Origin: a virus
Strand: one strand, 5' to 3'
Length of the DNA stretch: 34,570 nucleotides
IMG/VR virus record: IMGVR_UViG_3300031951_000649
Location: 1 to 34,570 of that record
A program made the translations under genes and the position numbers. The notes beneath the pieces were generated by a model, which ran no database searches, had not been told where the DNA came from, and saw only the letters and a list, made by a program, of their open reading frames with translations. Positions 20,672 to 34,570 of this stretch are shown here, in pieces. Numbering within the stretch: the first letter of the stretch is position 1; each line of letters opens with the position of its first letter.

Positions 20672-20698
20672 GTGTTACTCTCCTTTTGAGATACTGTT

Positions 20699-20801
20699 TA
20701 TCAATACTGCCTATACAGTATAACGGCTTAGTGCTATAAAAAGATACTAGGATAAACCCTAAGTTTTGATTGATTGTTGCTATTGATTGACAGTATTGAT
20801 A
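20699..20801. repeat. Inverted 11-bp pair TATCAATACTG / CAGTATTGATA plus extra half-sites
   Basis: TATCAATACTG at 20699-20709 and its exact reverse complement at 20791-20801 flank a shorter inverted repeat (ATACTG 20704-20709, CAGTAT 20716-20721); another ATACTG lies at 20691-20696. Clustered half-sites just upstream of the leftward gene at 20671 look like operators for a dimeric DNA-binding protein. Confidence 0.55.
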
Positions 20802-20820
20802 GTCTAATCCTATTGGTCTA

Positions 20821-20860
20821 GGTTGCACTAGGTTGCACTAGGTTGCACTAGGTTGCACTA
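20821..20860. repeat. Four perfect tandem copies of GGTTGCACTA (iteron-like)
   Basis: The 10-base unit repeats exactly four times with no spacer. It is followed by TAAAGGTGCAAC, where GTTGCAC (20852-20858) and GTGCAAC (20866-20872) form a 7-bp inverted pair. A period close to one helical turn puts all copies on the same face of the DNA, as in replication iterons or cooperative operator arrays. Confidence 0.8.
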
Positions 20861-20939
20861 TAAAGGTGCAACTCAGCCCTATATACTTGCTCTATCAACA
20901 ACACAGGTCAATAGTTTTTACCTATGATATGCGTCAATG

Positions 20940-20962
20940 CGTATATTCGTATATGCGTATAT
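20940..20962. repeat. AT-rich CGTATAT repeats with 8-bp period
   Basis: CGTATAT occurs at 20940-20946, 20948-20954 and 20956-20962, followed by TCGATAT. The short AT-rich array lies 80 bases from the iteron-like repeats and could act as an unwinding element. Confidence 0.6.
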
Positions 20963-20978
20963 ATCGATATTGTTACAA

Positions 20979-21045
20979 GTAAGTAAGCACTCACTAACCT
21001 AGCACTATATTGGTGCAAGAATGATGTAAGTAAGTGCTAACTAAC
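20979..21045. repeat. Two 20-bp direct repeats 47 bp apart
   Basis: Copies at 20979-20998 and 21026-21045 share GTAAGTAAG at the left and ACTAAC at the right, with 17 of 20 bases identical. Both carry a CACT- or TGCT-like centre. A related palindrome lies downstream of the promoter at 25367. Confidence 0.6.
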
Positions 21046-21237
21046 ATAGGGGGAGGGGTAGTCTATGTTGTGTAATGTTGGCGGAGCCTCCACAGCATAC
21101 AAAAAAGTAAAATAAGACTATGTTAATTGATAAAAAAGGGACATAGTCAATAATGGTGTATGTTATTGATTACTAAAGAATAATAAAATAGGGACAGAGT
21201 CACAGTAAATACTTTACTGCGTCGTTGGAAATGCTCA

Positions 21238-21320
21238 CTCCGTAGGAGGTCGCTGTTGTCCCCAGCGGAGACCTATATTGTCTAGGCAGACCCGCTGAAT
21301 CTGCACAGTCGCAGACGACT
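21238..21320. other. Hairpin-rich segment, possible structured RNA
   Basis: Successive pairings are CTCC/GGAG (21238-21248), AGGTCGCTG with CAGC-bulge-GACCT (21247-21274), GCAGA/TCTGC (21286-21304) and AGTCG-CAGA-CGACT (21307-21320). CAGCGG (21263-21268) can alternatively pair with CCGCTG (21292-21297), so two exclusive folds are possible. Strand and transcription are unknown. Confidence 0.45.
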
Positions 21321-21367
21321 ATGCTACCGTCTATGTTGTTGTTTTATAAGAAGTGTAAAAATAATAC

Positions 21368-21396
21368 TTGACAAAATCGTAAAAGTATGCTAAAAT
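21368..21396 (+). promoter_or_regulatory. Strong extended -10 promoter of the structural operon
   Basis: TTGACA at 21368-21373, 17-base spacer, then TGC-TAAAAT (-10 at 21391-21396). The start site would be near 21403, leaving a leader of about 210 bases before the terminase small-subunit gene. Confidence 0.85.
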
Positions 21397-21457
21397 CGCC
21401 TTACAAGTTCAAGCAACACACTATAAAGAATCGTGTAAGCCCTGCAAGCAGTGAATT

Positions 21458-21466
21458 ATTATAGCA
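21458..21466 (-). promoter_or_regulatory. Possible leftward extended -10 (TGCTATAAT)
   Basis: The minus strand reads TGCTATAAT, a perfect extended -10, but no -35 is recognisable at 16-18 bases. If active it would fire leftward against the structural promoter and across the hairpin-rich segment toward the gene at 20671. Confidence 0.3.
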
Positions 21467-21467
21467 C

Positions 21468-21510
21468 GCTAAACCACCGCTAAACCACTTGGTAAAAAAC
21501 AATTACCAAG
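21468..21510 (+). promoter_or_regulatory. Leader repeats and hairpin upstream of terminase genes
   Basis: GCTAAACCAC is repeated at 21468-21477 and 21479-21488 (11-bp period). The second copy runs into a perfect 8-bp hairpin, CTTGGTAA (21488-21495) with TTACCAAG (21503-21510), 7-base loop. Both lie in the predicted 5' leader of the structural transcript. There is no T-run after it, so control of translation or protein binding is more likely than termination. Confidence 0.5.
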
Positions 21511-21614
21511 AAACCTCCTGATAGCGAAAGGCTTAGTCTAACGACAGCATACTATAGTAACTATAGGGCTTCTTAAAAAATTTCTGTCTTTCCCTTTAAG
21601 GATAAAAAGGCTTT

Positions 21615-22100
21615 ATGTTAGAAGTTGAAAAACAATTATCTACCGAAGATGCACAGTCTTCAGACGATGGTGGCACTGTCTTAAAGAAGAAGCGACCAAA
21701 GCTGGTTAGACGAGAAGTTGTCGATGGTAAACCTGTTCGTGGTCGTCCCTCTAAGAAGGCGATTGCCAAGAAAAAGAATCCCGGCATTGTGGGGAGACCG
21801 CCGGGCGACGCAGCACGAATAGCAGAGTTTAAAGCAAGGCTGTTGGCAACACACGGTGATAGTGTCATTGAGAAGATAATCACCACCGCCCTACAAGATG
21901 GACACCCTGCACAGGGAGCAATGCTAAAGTTCTGTGGAGAACGATTGTTGCCTCTGTCTAGTTTCGAGGGCAAGACTGGTGGAGGAACACCGCAGATTTC
22001 AATTAATATCAGCGGACTAACAAATACAACGATAGAAGCAGAAGAAGTCATTGATAACGATGTTACTGATGTAACCATTAAGGACATCGATGAATCTTGA
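21615..22100 (+). CDS. Terminase small subunit candidate with AT-hook-like motifs
   Basis: The 161-aa protein has an acidic N-terminus, a strongly basic Lys/Arg region (about 23-55) with two AT-hook-like motifs (RGRPSKK at 42-48 and GRPPGD at 60-65), a helical core (ARIAEFKARLLATHGDSVIE and AMLKFCGERLLPL) and an acidic C-terminal tail. It directly precedes, and overlaps by 11 bases, the large terminase gene, the standard place of the DNA-recognition subunit. AAAGG stands 4-5 bases before the ATG. The call rests on position and DNA-binding motifs. An unrelated DNA-binding protein is the alternative. Confidence 0.65.
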   Translation: MLEVEKQLSTEDAQSSDDGGTVLKKKRPKLVRREVVDGKPVRGRPSKKAIAKKKNPGIVGRPPGDAARIAEFKARLLATHGDSVIEKIITTALQDGHPAQGAMLKFCGERLLPLSSFEGKTGGGTPQISINISGLTNTTIEAEEVIDNDVTDVTIKDIDES

Positions 22101-23346
22101 TTTTAAACTACTGAAGTGGCAACAAACAGTATTTAAAGACCCTACCCGATTCAAAGTAATCGCTGCTGGTCGCCGTTGTGGTAAGAGTAGATTATCAGCA
22201 GTAACGCTGTTAATTGAAGGTTTGAATTGTCCAGAAGGTTCTAGTGTGATGTATGTGGCACCAACCCTAGGACAAGCCCGGACGATTATGTGGGACTTGT
22301 TGATGGACTTAGGAAAGCCTGTCATCAAATCCGCACACATCAACAATCTTGAGATAACATTAGTCAATGGTCGTAAAATCCTCATTCGAGGAGCCGACAA
22401 CCAAGACTCTTTGCGTGGTGTGTCTTTGTCGTACTTGGTAATGGACGAGGTCGCTTTTATCAAGTCAGAGATTTGGGAACGAGTACTTCGTGCTGCTTTG
22501 TCAGATAAAAAAGGTAGAGCCATGTTTATCTCTACTCCATCTGGACGAAACCATTTCTATGATTGGTTTCAATTGGGACAGAGTGGAGACGATGCAGATT
22601 GGAAATCTTGGCACTTTACCACCGCTGACAATGAAACGATTGACCCGAAAGAGATTGAGGCTGCAAAACGCACATTAAGTTCTTTTGCGTTCAATCAAGA
22701 GTACCTGTCTTCCTTCAATAATGCTGGCGCAGGATTATTTAAAGAAGAATGGATTAAGTTTGGCGATGAACCTGACATTGGTTCGTGGTACATTGCGGTA
22801 GACTTAGCTGGCTTTGAAGATGTCGCTAAAAGCGCTAACGCCACTAAGAAAAGACTAGACCAGTCCGCTATTGCAGTTGTCAAAGTAACCGATGATGGTA
22901 TTTGGTTTGTCGACAAGATTGAAGCTGGTCGCTGGGATATACAGACTACTGCACTTAATATTTTAAAGAATATTAGAGAGTATGAACCTCTAGCAGTTGG
23001 CATCGAGCGAGGGGCGCTAAAGAATGCAGTATTGCCTTACCTCAGTGATTTGATGCGAAAGAACAACTGTTACGCTCATATCTTAGATTTGACGCATGGC
23101 AATAAGAAAAAAGTAGATAGGATTGTTTGGGCTTTGCAAGGTCGATTTGAACATGGACGAGTTGTACTCAATGCTGAAGAAGACTTTGAAGAGTTTGTTG
23201 ACCAACTACTAATGTTTCCAACCGCACAGGTGCATGATGACTTACCTGATGCGTTAAGCTATATCGACCAACTCGCTGTCACGAGCTACAGTATTGACAA
23301 CGACGAAGACGATTGGCAAGCATTAGATGTGGTTAGTGGCTATTAA
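22090..23346 (+). CDS. terL: Terminase large subunit (packaging ATPase-nuclease)
   Basis: The 418-aa motor protein drives DNA into the prohead and cuts it. The ATPase domain has a terminase-type Walker A, AAGRRCGKS (25-33), Walker B YLVMDE (115-120, Asp119 and catalytic Glu120) and the coupling motif ISTPSG (147-152). The RNase H-fold nuclease domain shows IAVDLAG (Asp238), VGIERG (Glu306) and HDDLPDA (Asp384/Asp387). Length is typical for the shorter phage large terminases. It is followed 12 bases later by the portal gene. Confidence 0.96.
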   Translation: MNLDFKLLKWQQTVFKDPTRFKVIAAGRRCGKSRLSAVTLLIEGLNCPEGSSVMYVAPTLGQARTIMWDLLMDLGKPVIKSAHINNLEITLVNGRKILIRGADNQDSLRGVSLSYLVMDEVAFIKSEIWERVLRAALSDKKGRAMFISTPSGRNHFYDWFQLGQSGDDADWKSWHFTTADNETIDPKEIEAAKRTLSSFAFNQEYLSSFNNAGAGLFKEEWIKFGDEPDIGSWYIAVDLAGFEDVAKSANATKKRLDQSAIAVVKVTDDGIWFVDKIEAGRWDIQTTALNILKNIREYEPLAVGIERGALKNAVLPYLSDLMRKNNCYAHILDLTHGNKKKVDRIVWALQGRFEHGRVVLNAEEDFEEFVDQLLMFPTAQVHDDLPDALSYIDQLAVTSYSIDNDEDDWQALDVVSGY

Positions 23347-27898: not shown

Positions 27899-29386
27899 TT
27901 GAGCCTATATCGGGGACCCGGTGGGTCAGGAGACGCTACAAACGATGCTTCTAGTCAAGCAGTTTTAGCCACTGCTGCAGCAAACGCAGCAGAAGTATCT
28001 AAGAATCAAGCACAAGCATCTGCGTCAGCAGCATCAACCTCTGCCACAAACGCATCTAATTCAGCAACTGCAGCAGCTAGTTCAGCATCCTCTGCAGCAG
28101 CGTCAGTATCTAGTATTGGTACTTCGGTTAGTGATGCCGCAACTTCAGCAAGTAACGCCAGTACCTCAGCAACCAATGCTGCCTCGTCTGCGTCATCGGC
28201 ATCAACTTCTGCGACTAATGCAAGCAACAGTGCTTCATCAGCATCCACTAGCGCTAGTAATGCAAGCACATCGGCAAGCAATGCTTCCACCAGTGCTACC
28301 AATGCTTCTAACAGTGCTACAACCGCATCAACTGCAGCAACGAATGCTGGTACAAGCGAAACCAATGCTGCAGCATCTGCATCAACAGCATCGACTGCAG
28401 CAACCAATGCAAGTAACAGTGCTTCATCAGCATCAACCTCTGCAAGCAATGCCAGTTCTTCTGCATCATCTGCCTCGTCATCAGCATCCACTGCGACGAC
28501 ACAGGCAAGTAATGCTAGTACTTCGGCAACAAATGCAAGCAATAGTGCTTCAGCAGCGTCTACATCGGCAACCAATGCTAGTAACAGTGCGTCTACAGCA
28601 TCTACAGCAGCAACCAATGCTTCAGCAGCTCAGGTAGCAGCAGAAACCGCTAGAGACCAAACATTAACTGCTTACGATAACTTTGATGACAGGTACTTAG
28701 GAGCTAAGACTTCTGACCCTACACTCGATAACGATGGTAATGCCTTATTAGCTGGTGCTTTGTATTTCAATAGCTCTTTAGGCTATATGAAGGTGTATAC
28801 CGGCTCTGTCTGGGTAGATGCCTATGCTGCTGGAACCAGTTTCTTAGCCAAAGCAAACAATTTAAGCGATTTACCTGACGCATCTGTTGCACGAACCAAT
28901 CTTGGTTTAGCAATTGGTACTAATGTTCAGGCTTACGATGCAGATTTAGCAACGATTGCTGGTCTAACTCCCACCAATAACTATGCTATTATTGGTAATG
29001 GAACAAGCTGGACTTCTTCAGCATTGCCAGCAACAGGTGTAACTTCTGTAACAGGCACAGCACCGATTGTTTCTAGTGGCGGCACTACTCCAGCAATCTC
29101 GATACCAGCAGCAACTTCGAGTGTTAATGGTTACTTAACCAGCACAGATTGGTCAACATTTAATGCTAAACAAGCTGCTTTAGTTAGTGGCACAAACATC
29201 AAGACTGTTGGTGGTGTTAGTCTCCTAGGTTCTGGCGATGTAGGTACTCTAACAGTAGCTTATGGCGGAACTGGGGCTACCACGCTAACAGGATACATTA
29301 AAGGCTCTGGAACCAGTGCTTTTACAGCTAGTTCGACAATTCCGGGGTCAGATATTGATGGAACAATAGATGGTGGAAGTTTTTAA
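27899..29386 (+). CDS. Tail fibre protein with long Ser/Ala/Asn/Thr repeat shaft (TTG start)
   Basis: The start is TTG at 27899, with AGGAG 6-7 bases upstream (SLYRGPGGSGDATNDAS). Residues about 35-258 are an imperfect repeat built nearly only of Ser, Ala, Asn and Thr in units like SATNASN and STSASNA, as in the shaft of lambda-type side tail fibres (PF03335-like). The C-terminal 230 residues hold fibre-type modules: GALYFNSSLGYMKVYTGSVW, NNLSDLPDASVARTNLGL and VAYGGTGATTLTGYIKG. It probably forms a trimeric fibre that reaches toward the receptor. A minus-strand ORF over the repeat is an artefact of the skewed codon pattern. Confidence 0.9.
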   Translation: MSLYRGPGGSGDATNDASSQAVLATAAANAAEVSKNQAQASASAASTSATNASNSATAAASSASSAAASVSSIGTSVSDAATSASNASTSATNAASSASSASTSATNASNSASSASTSASNASTSASNASTSATNASNSATTASTAATNAGTSETNAAASASTASTAATNASNSASSASTSASNASSSASSASSSASTATTQASNASTSATNASNSASAASTSATNASNSASTASTAATNASAAQVAAETARDQTLTAYDNFDDRYLGAKTSDPTLDNDGNALLAGALYFNSSLGYMKVYTGSVWVDAYAAGTSFLAKANNLSDLPDASVARTNLGLAIGTNVQAYDADLATIAGLTPTNNYAIIGNGTSWTSSALPATGVTSVTGTAPIVSSGGTTPAISIPAATSSVNGYLTSTDWSTFNAKQAALVSGTNIKTVGGVSLLGSGDVGTLTVAYGGTGATTLTGYIKGSGTSAFTASSTIPGSDIDGTIDGGSF

Positions 29387-34411: not shown

Positions 34412-34570
34412 TGCCTAAGAAGGAATACCAGAATCCTGAAGGGGGTTTAAACGCCAAAGGAAGGGCTTATTTCAAGCGAACTGAAGGAGCTAACCTCAAA
34501 CCTCCAGTTTCGGCTAAAGCGGCTGCAAAGTCCCCTAAAGCAGCTAAAAGGCGTAAGTCTTTTTGTGCAA
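34411..34570 (+). CDS. Short basic protein, DUF6321-like (3' end outside window)
   Basis: Starts MPKKEYQNPEGGLNAKGRAY and goes on FKRTEGANLKPPVS, AAAKSPKAAKRRKSF before the window ends at residue 53. The LNAKGRAYFKR...GANLKPPV...SPKAAKRRKSFCA string fits DUF6321-type phage proteins. It is truncated on the right. Confidence 0.8.
   Translation, partial: MPKKEYQNPEGGLNAKGRAYFKRTEGANLKPPVSAKAAAKSPKAAKRRKSFCA

Follow-up and report, generated by a model that had tools for sequence, protein, structure and literature searches.

Phage takeover of host regulation is known to proceed mostly via proteins, or via sites for one regulator. Loci of the datA type titrate DnaA. Synthetic decoys for transcription factors have also been described (PMC7826281). 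Among phages, intergenic regions dense in CtrA boxes are found in Brevundimonas phage vB_BsubS-Delta and others, where regulation, referred to as 'lytic deferment', has been shown experimentally, and DnaA, GcrA and SciP sites have no positional asymmetry in alphaproteobacterial phages (PMC9437464). Of the known systems, these regions come closest to the locus described here, which resembles them in that it is a large intergenic region between divergent modules near the terminase end, is dense in sites of host master-regulator type, and recurs in several phage lineages. It differs from them in that CtrA stands alone there, whereas here a single slot is shared by boxes for several unrelated regulators, which replace one another.

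The window, i.e., the whole stretch of DNA analyzed, is an incomplete virus record of 34,570 bases. Its ends map about 3.2–3.4 kb apart inside longer relatives, and this stretch is missing between base 34570 and base 1; on this comparison, the map is circular and about 37.8 kb long, and the record is a cut, incomplete copy of it. Genes for RNR, a polymerase exonuclease subunit, an exonuclease, a Gp2.5-type SSB, PolA and a primase-helicase lie on the minus strand of the left half, and those for TerL (22090–23346), portal and capsid on the plus strand of the right half. A noncoding gap (20672–21614) separates the leftward replication genes from the rightward TerS/TerL genes, and the preliminary description was right in placing its repeat array in the sole large noncoding gap between divergent operons. 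The first rightward gene (21615–22100, plus strand) is probably the small terminase (TerS), as suggested by its position upstream of TerL, and has no family match. Among the scanned window proteins, none was recognized as an integrase, RNA polymerase or DNA-binding regulator, and no replication initiator was found there either, as had been claimed before. The phage collection held no near DNA relative of the window, portal matches there being <30% identical, and a search for TerL relatives among prophages in cellular genome contigs, undertaken for host assignment, found none. The tail-fiber gene contains a long repeat of 42-bp period (TGCATCATCAGCATCGAC..., 28189–28620).

The gap is flanked by two promoters. 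The probable −10 element of the leftward promoter PL (TATACT, minus strand, 20717–20722) has no good −35 and lies within the motif AGTATAACGG, which is found in many relatives, and the rightward promoter PR is of the sigma-70 type (TTGACA-17-TAAAAT, 21368–21396, plus strand). PR is separated from the probable TerS gene by a leader of ~215 nt (21397–21614) with the invariant pieces TGATAGCGAA and ACTATAGTA..TATAGGGCTT, which in relatives has hairpins with conserved GGGAC stems and is possibly a new regulatory RNA. A consensus fold was attempted on an alignment that proved too divergent, and a structured RNA was set aside as a candidate, Rfam giving no match above threshold. Between the hub and PR sits a near-invariant noncoding block (21227–21306, ATGCTCACTCCG...GCAGACCCGC, comprising ATGCTCACTCCGTAGGAGGTC..GTCCCCAGCGGAGACCTATATTGTC..GCAGACCCGC) that has no Rfam match and, next to the terminase genes as it is, may serve in packaging (pac/cos) or be a structured element.

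The hub itself is the left part of the gap, about 20725–21050. The reported array consists of four exact, unspaced copies of GGTTGCACTA at 20821–20860 on the plus strand, which TRF reports as 20818–20860 with period 10, 100% match and score 86, and it is followed by GTGCAAC (20866–20872), the inverse of GTTGCAC; the four 10-bp repeats and the 7-bp inverted copy thus stand exactly as first described. A whole-window search found no further exact copy of the unit, and the two-copy 20-mer of the array occurs in 7 stretches among all IMG/VR viral contigs, the majority of which are relatives and one of which (L090) appears unrelated. Copy 4 and the inverted copy together form the palindrome TTGCACTATAAAGGTGCAA (20853–20871, NtrC box 1), and a second palindrome, AGCACTATATTGGTGCAA, lies at 21001–21018 (NtrC box 2). 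Also present are an imperfect AGGGT-N2-ACCCT palindrome (AGGATAAACCCT, 20753–20764) and two half sites, ATAG-N7-CTAT (20801–20815) and ATAGTTTTTACCTAT (20911–20925), which are called OxyR-like on the basis of the OxyR consensus (PMC5720770). The anchor A1, of the GGTGCAWCAnnGCC..ATACAC type (20865–20895), is kept in nearly all clade hubs whichever boxes surround it, and the anchor A2, a G-run on the plus strand (21045–21058), closes the hub on the right clade-wide and in most of the distant relatives printed. Further right, a conserved AT-rich block, ACAAAAAAGTAAAATA...AATAATAAAATAG (21090–21200), includes the most AT-rich stretch (21101–21200) and would be a candidate unwinding element if the region were an origin.

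Both window palindromes fit the 17-bp NtrC consensus, with N7 between TGCAC and GTGCA, for which TGCACCAnnnTGGTGCA (PMC8743547) and TGCACC(A/T)4TGGTGCA (PMC4987338) have been published. The control region of E. coli K-12 glnA contains GCACTATATTGGTGCAA, which is identical to window 21002–21018, and the preceding base is also equal, so that box 2 matches the glnA NtrC enhancer site at 18/18 bases; this was read directly from the control region sequence, box 2 being too short for Blast against E. coli genomes. By this likeness, and if E. coli consensus motifs apply in the host, TGCAC-N7-GTGCA is an NtrC box. Loose NtrC matches within the window alone are no commoner than chance, and just the two near-perfect matches stand out. 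The glnA enhancer resembles the hub in having several boxes in a row, but the hub lacks a nearby sigma-54 promoter and its relatives mix in sites of other regulators. Sigma-54 promoters are not enriched in the hubs, including near the NtrC boxes.

Conservation was assessed with TerL as query, which yielded 80 relatives, the 15 closest with the region having 94–99% TerL identity. At the array, GTTGCAC is present four times in the window versus 0–2 exact copies in each of these 15, and the extra copies appear in the alignment as indels (gap fraction 0.47). Nearly all close relatives retain TTGCAC-TAWAWAG-GTGCA, made up of the last copy plus the inverted one, the conserved element of the array being the palindrome TGCAC-N7-GTGCA, and box 2 is retained in most of them. 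An iteron array, in which the number and spacing of the repeats should be conserved, is not supported by these relatives. The AT-rich repeat named there (TGCGTATAT, 20931–20975) is real (at 20940–20971), but it is absent from most close relatives and so appears dispensable.

The array proper may represent reiterated NtrC half sites, PutA-like operators or neutral slippage. The repeats reiterate the left NtrC half site, and they also resemble the operators of PutA, a ribbon-helix-helix (RHH) protein, in the E. coli put region, which has six GTTGCA motifs, with GGTTGCACAA, GGTTGCACTC and GGTTGCACCT, and in one case a 10-bp spacing between two of them; GGTTGCAC units, GTTGCA motifs and the 10-bp spacing are all found in the window array. 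RHH proteins bind short tandem sites. The put region differs from the window, where four perfect tandem copies are joined to an NtrC-type palindrome. It is quite unlikely that the direct repeats are PutA operators instead of NtrC half sites: the operator-like array form is not kept across relatives, the TTGGTGC units that replace the array units in relatives suit NtrC and not PutA, and distant groups lack any 10-bp GTTGCA pair. That the extra copies arose by neutral replication slippage and have no function, whatever the two palindromes do, is conceivable, though the odds are against it; the copy number of 0 to 4 across relatives and the indels speak in its favor, but the units maintain the 10-bp period and the L086 lineage, at 77% primase identity, likewise has exactly four tandem copies.

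The slot was then compared across 54 distinct hubs, each spanning 520 bases up to the conserved G-run on its right, and the 333 kb that remain of these loci served as control; motifs were scored on E. coli consensus motifs, which may not be those of the host. For Fur, LexA and DnaA, the generally known consensus sequences were used. Among relatives that are less close, this slot contains TGTGGATAA arrays (DnaA type), TGAGAATCATTATCA (Fur type), CTGT-N8-ACAG (LexA type) and ATAG-N7-CTAT. The NtrC-type dyad GCAC-N7-GTGC occurs 40 times in 20 of the 54 hubs and twice in the 333 kb outside them, and the 40 occurrences at N7 compare with 0 at N0–N6 and N8–N10. The same strictness of spacing is seen for the LexA type, with 16 occurrences in the hubs and 0 at N6, N7 and N9–N11. 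ATAG-N7-CTAT is found 50 times in hubs versus 2 in the control, and the full OxyR site (ATAG-N7-CTAT-N7-ATAG-N7-CTAT) occurs in L138 only, at 15/16, and the Fur 7-1-7 motif is found 11 times in hubs versus 3 outside, control motifs giving 0. Perfect AGGGT-N2-ACCCT is present in 20/54 hubs and nowhere in the remainder of the genomes; GTTAG-N6-CTAAC, TGTTG-N8-CAACA, GTAAG-N2-CTTAC and ATAAC-N5-GTTAT are further hub palindromes of strict spacing, and known regulators were matched for about half of the palindrome classes. Since the hubs are homologous, the test was repeated on a non-redundant set sharing <40% of length, and in these 24 hubs each of 12 motifs was more frequent than in all of 1000 dinucleotide shuffles. 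Binomial values, in which homologous copies count as independent, are given no weight here. As with CtrA boxes, the sites are concentrated in one intergenic region relative to the rest of the genome. No clear enrichment in the hubs was seen for consensus sites of CRP, FNR, ArgR, PurR, PhoB, MetJ, SoxS or NsrR, and the helical phasing of CTA/TAG steps across hubs is weak. The GTAAGTGAGTGCTTACTT module, one of the palindrome classes without a matched regulator, was considered as a common cellular operator and rejected, as 257 Gb of cellular genomes gave 8 chance-like matches. Two individual hubs show tandem repeats of other kinds: at L216:4560-4760, short GTGTTACCGC-type repeats stand directly before five NtrC boxes, and at L036:4500-4700, about 1.0–1.2 kb upstream of TerL, TGTGTTGTGTC is repeated ~6x in the same slot with an 11-bp period.

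A scan with the 16-base NtrC core led to distant family members, and their TerL led to two further groups (TerL about 50–58% identical). Upstream of TerL, these groups contain 20 and 10 NtrC N7 dyads, with 0 and 0 downstream, and 44 (7 loci) and 59 (15 loci) DnaA boxes, with 0 and 1 downstream; the NtrC counts of the seed loci are not independent, as the groups were reached via the NtrC core, whereas the DnaA, Fur and LexA counts are. The distant hubs have up to nine perfect DnaA boxes, alternating with NtrC, Fur and LexA boxes beside the G-run, which is adjacent in most of the distant hubs printed, and the AT-rich block is present in many. The order varies between loci: DnaA x3, NtrC, DnaA x2, NtrC and DnaA x2 in L416; DnaA, NtrC, Fur and DnaA in L454; NtrC, LexA and DnaA x4 in L393; and five NtrC boxes in L363. 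In L204 and L209, which are kin by primase and polymerase, DnaA, NtrC, Fur and NtrC boxes fall within about 100 bases. Tandem TGTGGATAACnTGTGGATAAC (DnaA boxes of 11-bp period; L243–L321) is found in >120 viral stretches, most of them without detected kinship to this family, and it is possible that DnaA arrays are widespread in phages. No specific excess of N7 NtrC or LexA boxes was found around these other arrays, and a generality of the mixed hub outside this phage family was accordingly rejected.

From the anatomy of the hub, and from the strict spacing, enrichment and swapping of its boxes, we infer that host proteins bind there. The array is best read as belonging to a modular hub on which high-quality sites for host transcription factors are displayed, with decoy or titration as the favored function, a reading to which we assign a probability of about 0.5. 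The window hub would then combine two NtrC boxes with OxyR-like half sites, the 10-bp repeats adding reiterated half sites or PutA-like operators, while the slot in relatives would offer boxes for NtrC, DnaA, LexA and Fur in combinations that vary from hub to hub. As the phage DNA multiplies, the hub would act as a sponge for host regulators and would blunt host replication control (DnaA) as well as nutrient and stress responses (NtrC, Fur, LexA); tandem copies may arise via slippage of one helical turn and thereby add binding capacity. Like datA-type loci and synthetic decoys, the hub has high-affinity boxes in a cluster, by which a host protein could be sequestered, but it is phage-borne and addresses several regulators, and titration, which depends on copy number and affinity, is a proposal here. 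A decoy is favored over promoter control because unrelated repressors, activators and DnaA interchange while the flanking promoters persist, because the boxes do not overlap the core promoters PL or PR, and because sigma-54 promoters are not enriched near the NtrC boxes. A pure decoy does not account for the conservation of the AT-rich block and of the anchors A1 and A2.

Other functions of the same region have to be weighed against titration. The closest alternative is that the hub senses the state of the host, bound NtrC, LexA, Fur or DnaA tuning the leftward and rightward phage promoters in the way CtrA does. It lies between PL and PR, in a phage for which neither an RNA polymerase nor a DNA-binding regulator of its own was recognized, and regulation of promoters by host CtrA is published for alphaproteobacterial phages (PMC9437464). 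The boxes are, however, tens to hundreds of bases away from the core promoters, NtrC lacks a sigma-54 promoter on which to act, and regulators of opposite modes replace each other, which makes such sensing unlikely. It is likewise unlikely that the hub is a replication origin with exchangeable accessory sites, in which DnaA, NtrC and others would wrap or bend DNA beside the AT-rich block, helped by transcription from PR. The divergent gene layout fits an origin, and so do distant relatives, whose slot has up to nine DnaA boxes followed by the G-run and, in many, the AT-rich block; but no DnaA box with <=1 mismatch exists in the window, beside its AT-rich element or elsewhere, or in 48/54 hubs. 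We know of no case in which LexA or Fur serves as an origin protein in phages. The cumulative GC skew, which had been proposed as a check, does have its minimum at about 21 kb, but this coincides with the switch in gene direction, so that the skew proves nothing about an origin and was discarded as evidence.

Finally, it is highly improbable that the repeats are a classical iteron array to which an initiator of the phage binds: tandem direct repeats of helical period in a noncoding gap are what iteron origins of plasmids and phages also have, yet in the window no initiator or RHH gene was recognized among the scanned proteins, the 10-bp unit has no spacer, neither the copy number and spacing nor most of the array is conserved, and the slot in relatives holds other host boxes. 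The iteron reading was rejected on these grounds. A protein-binding array, as originally supposed, is supported by its sequence, although its likely binder is a host regulator, namely NtrC or, for the direct repeats, possibly PutA, and not a phage initiator; as judged from its DNA, the region is probably a capture site for host proteins and not an iteron array of the classical kind.

With slightly less confidence than in the decoy itself, this family of uncultured phages may be said to keep one dedicated, fast-evolving hub whose modules, high-affinity sites for DnaA, NtrC, LexA, Fur and other master regulators of the host, come, go and replace each other; it might work as a DNA sponge with multiple targets, or correspond in phages to the auxiliary elements for host transcription factors in eukaryotic viral origins. 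In the open-access literature, no phage hub was found to be described that combines exchangeable sites for several host regulators, which is weak as evidence of absence; the single-regulator form is known from CtrA, and the multi-regulator, module-swapping form looks new. If the interpretation is true, the DNA of a phage can by itself intervene in the regulatory network of its host, and the boxes of the hub would be a sequence signature of the host pathways that matter in infection, which would help in predicting the hosts of uncultured phages.
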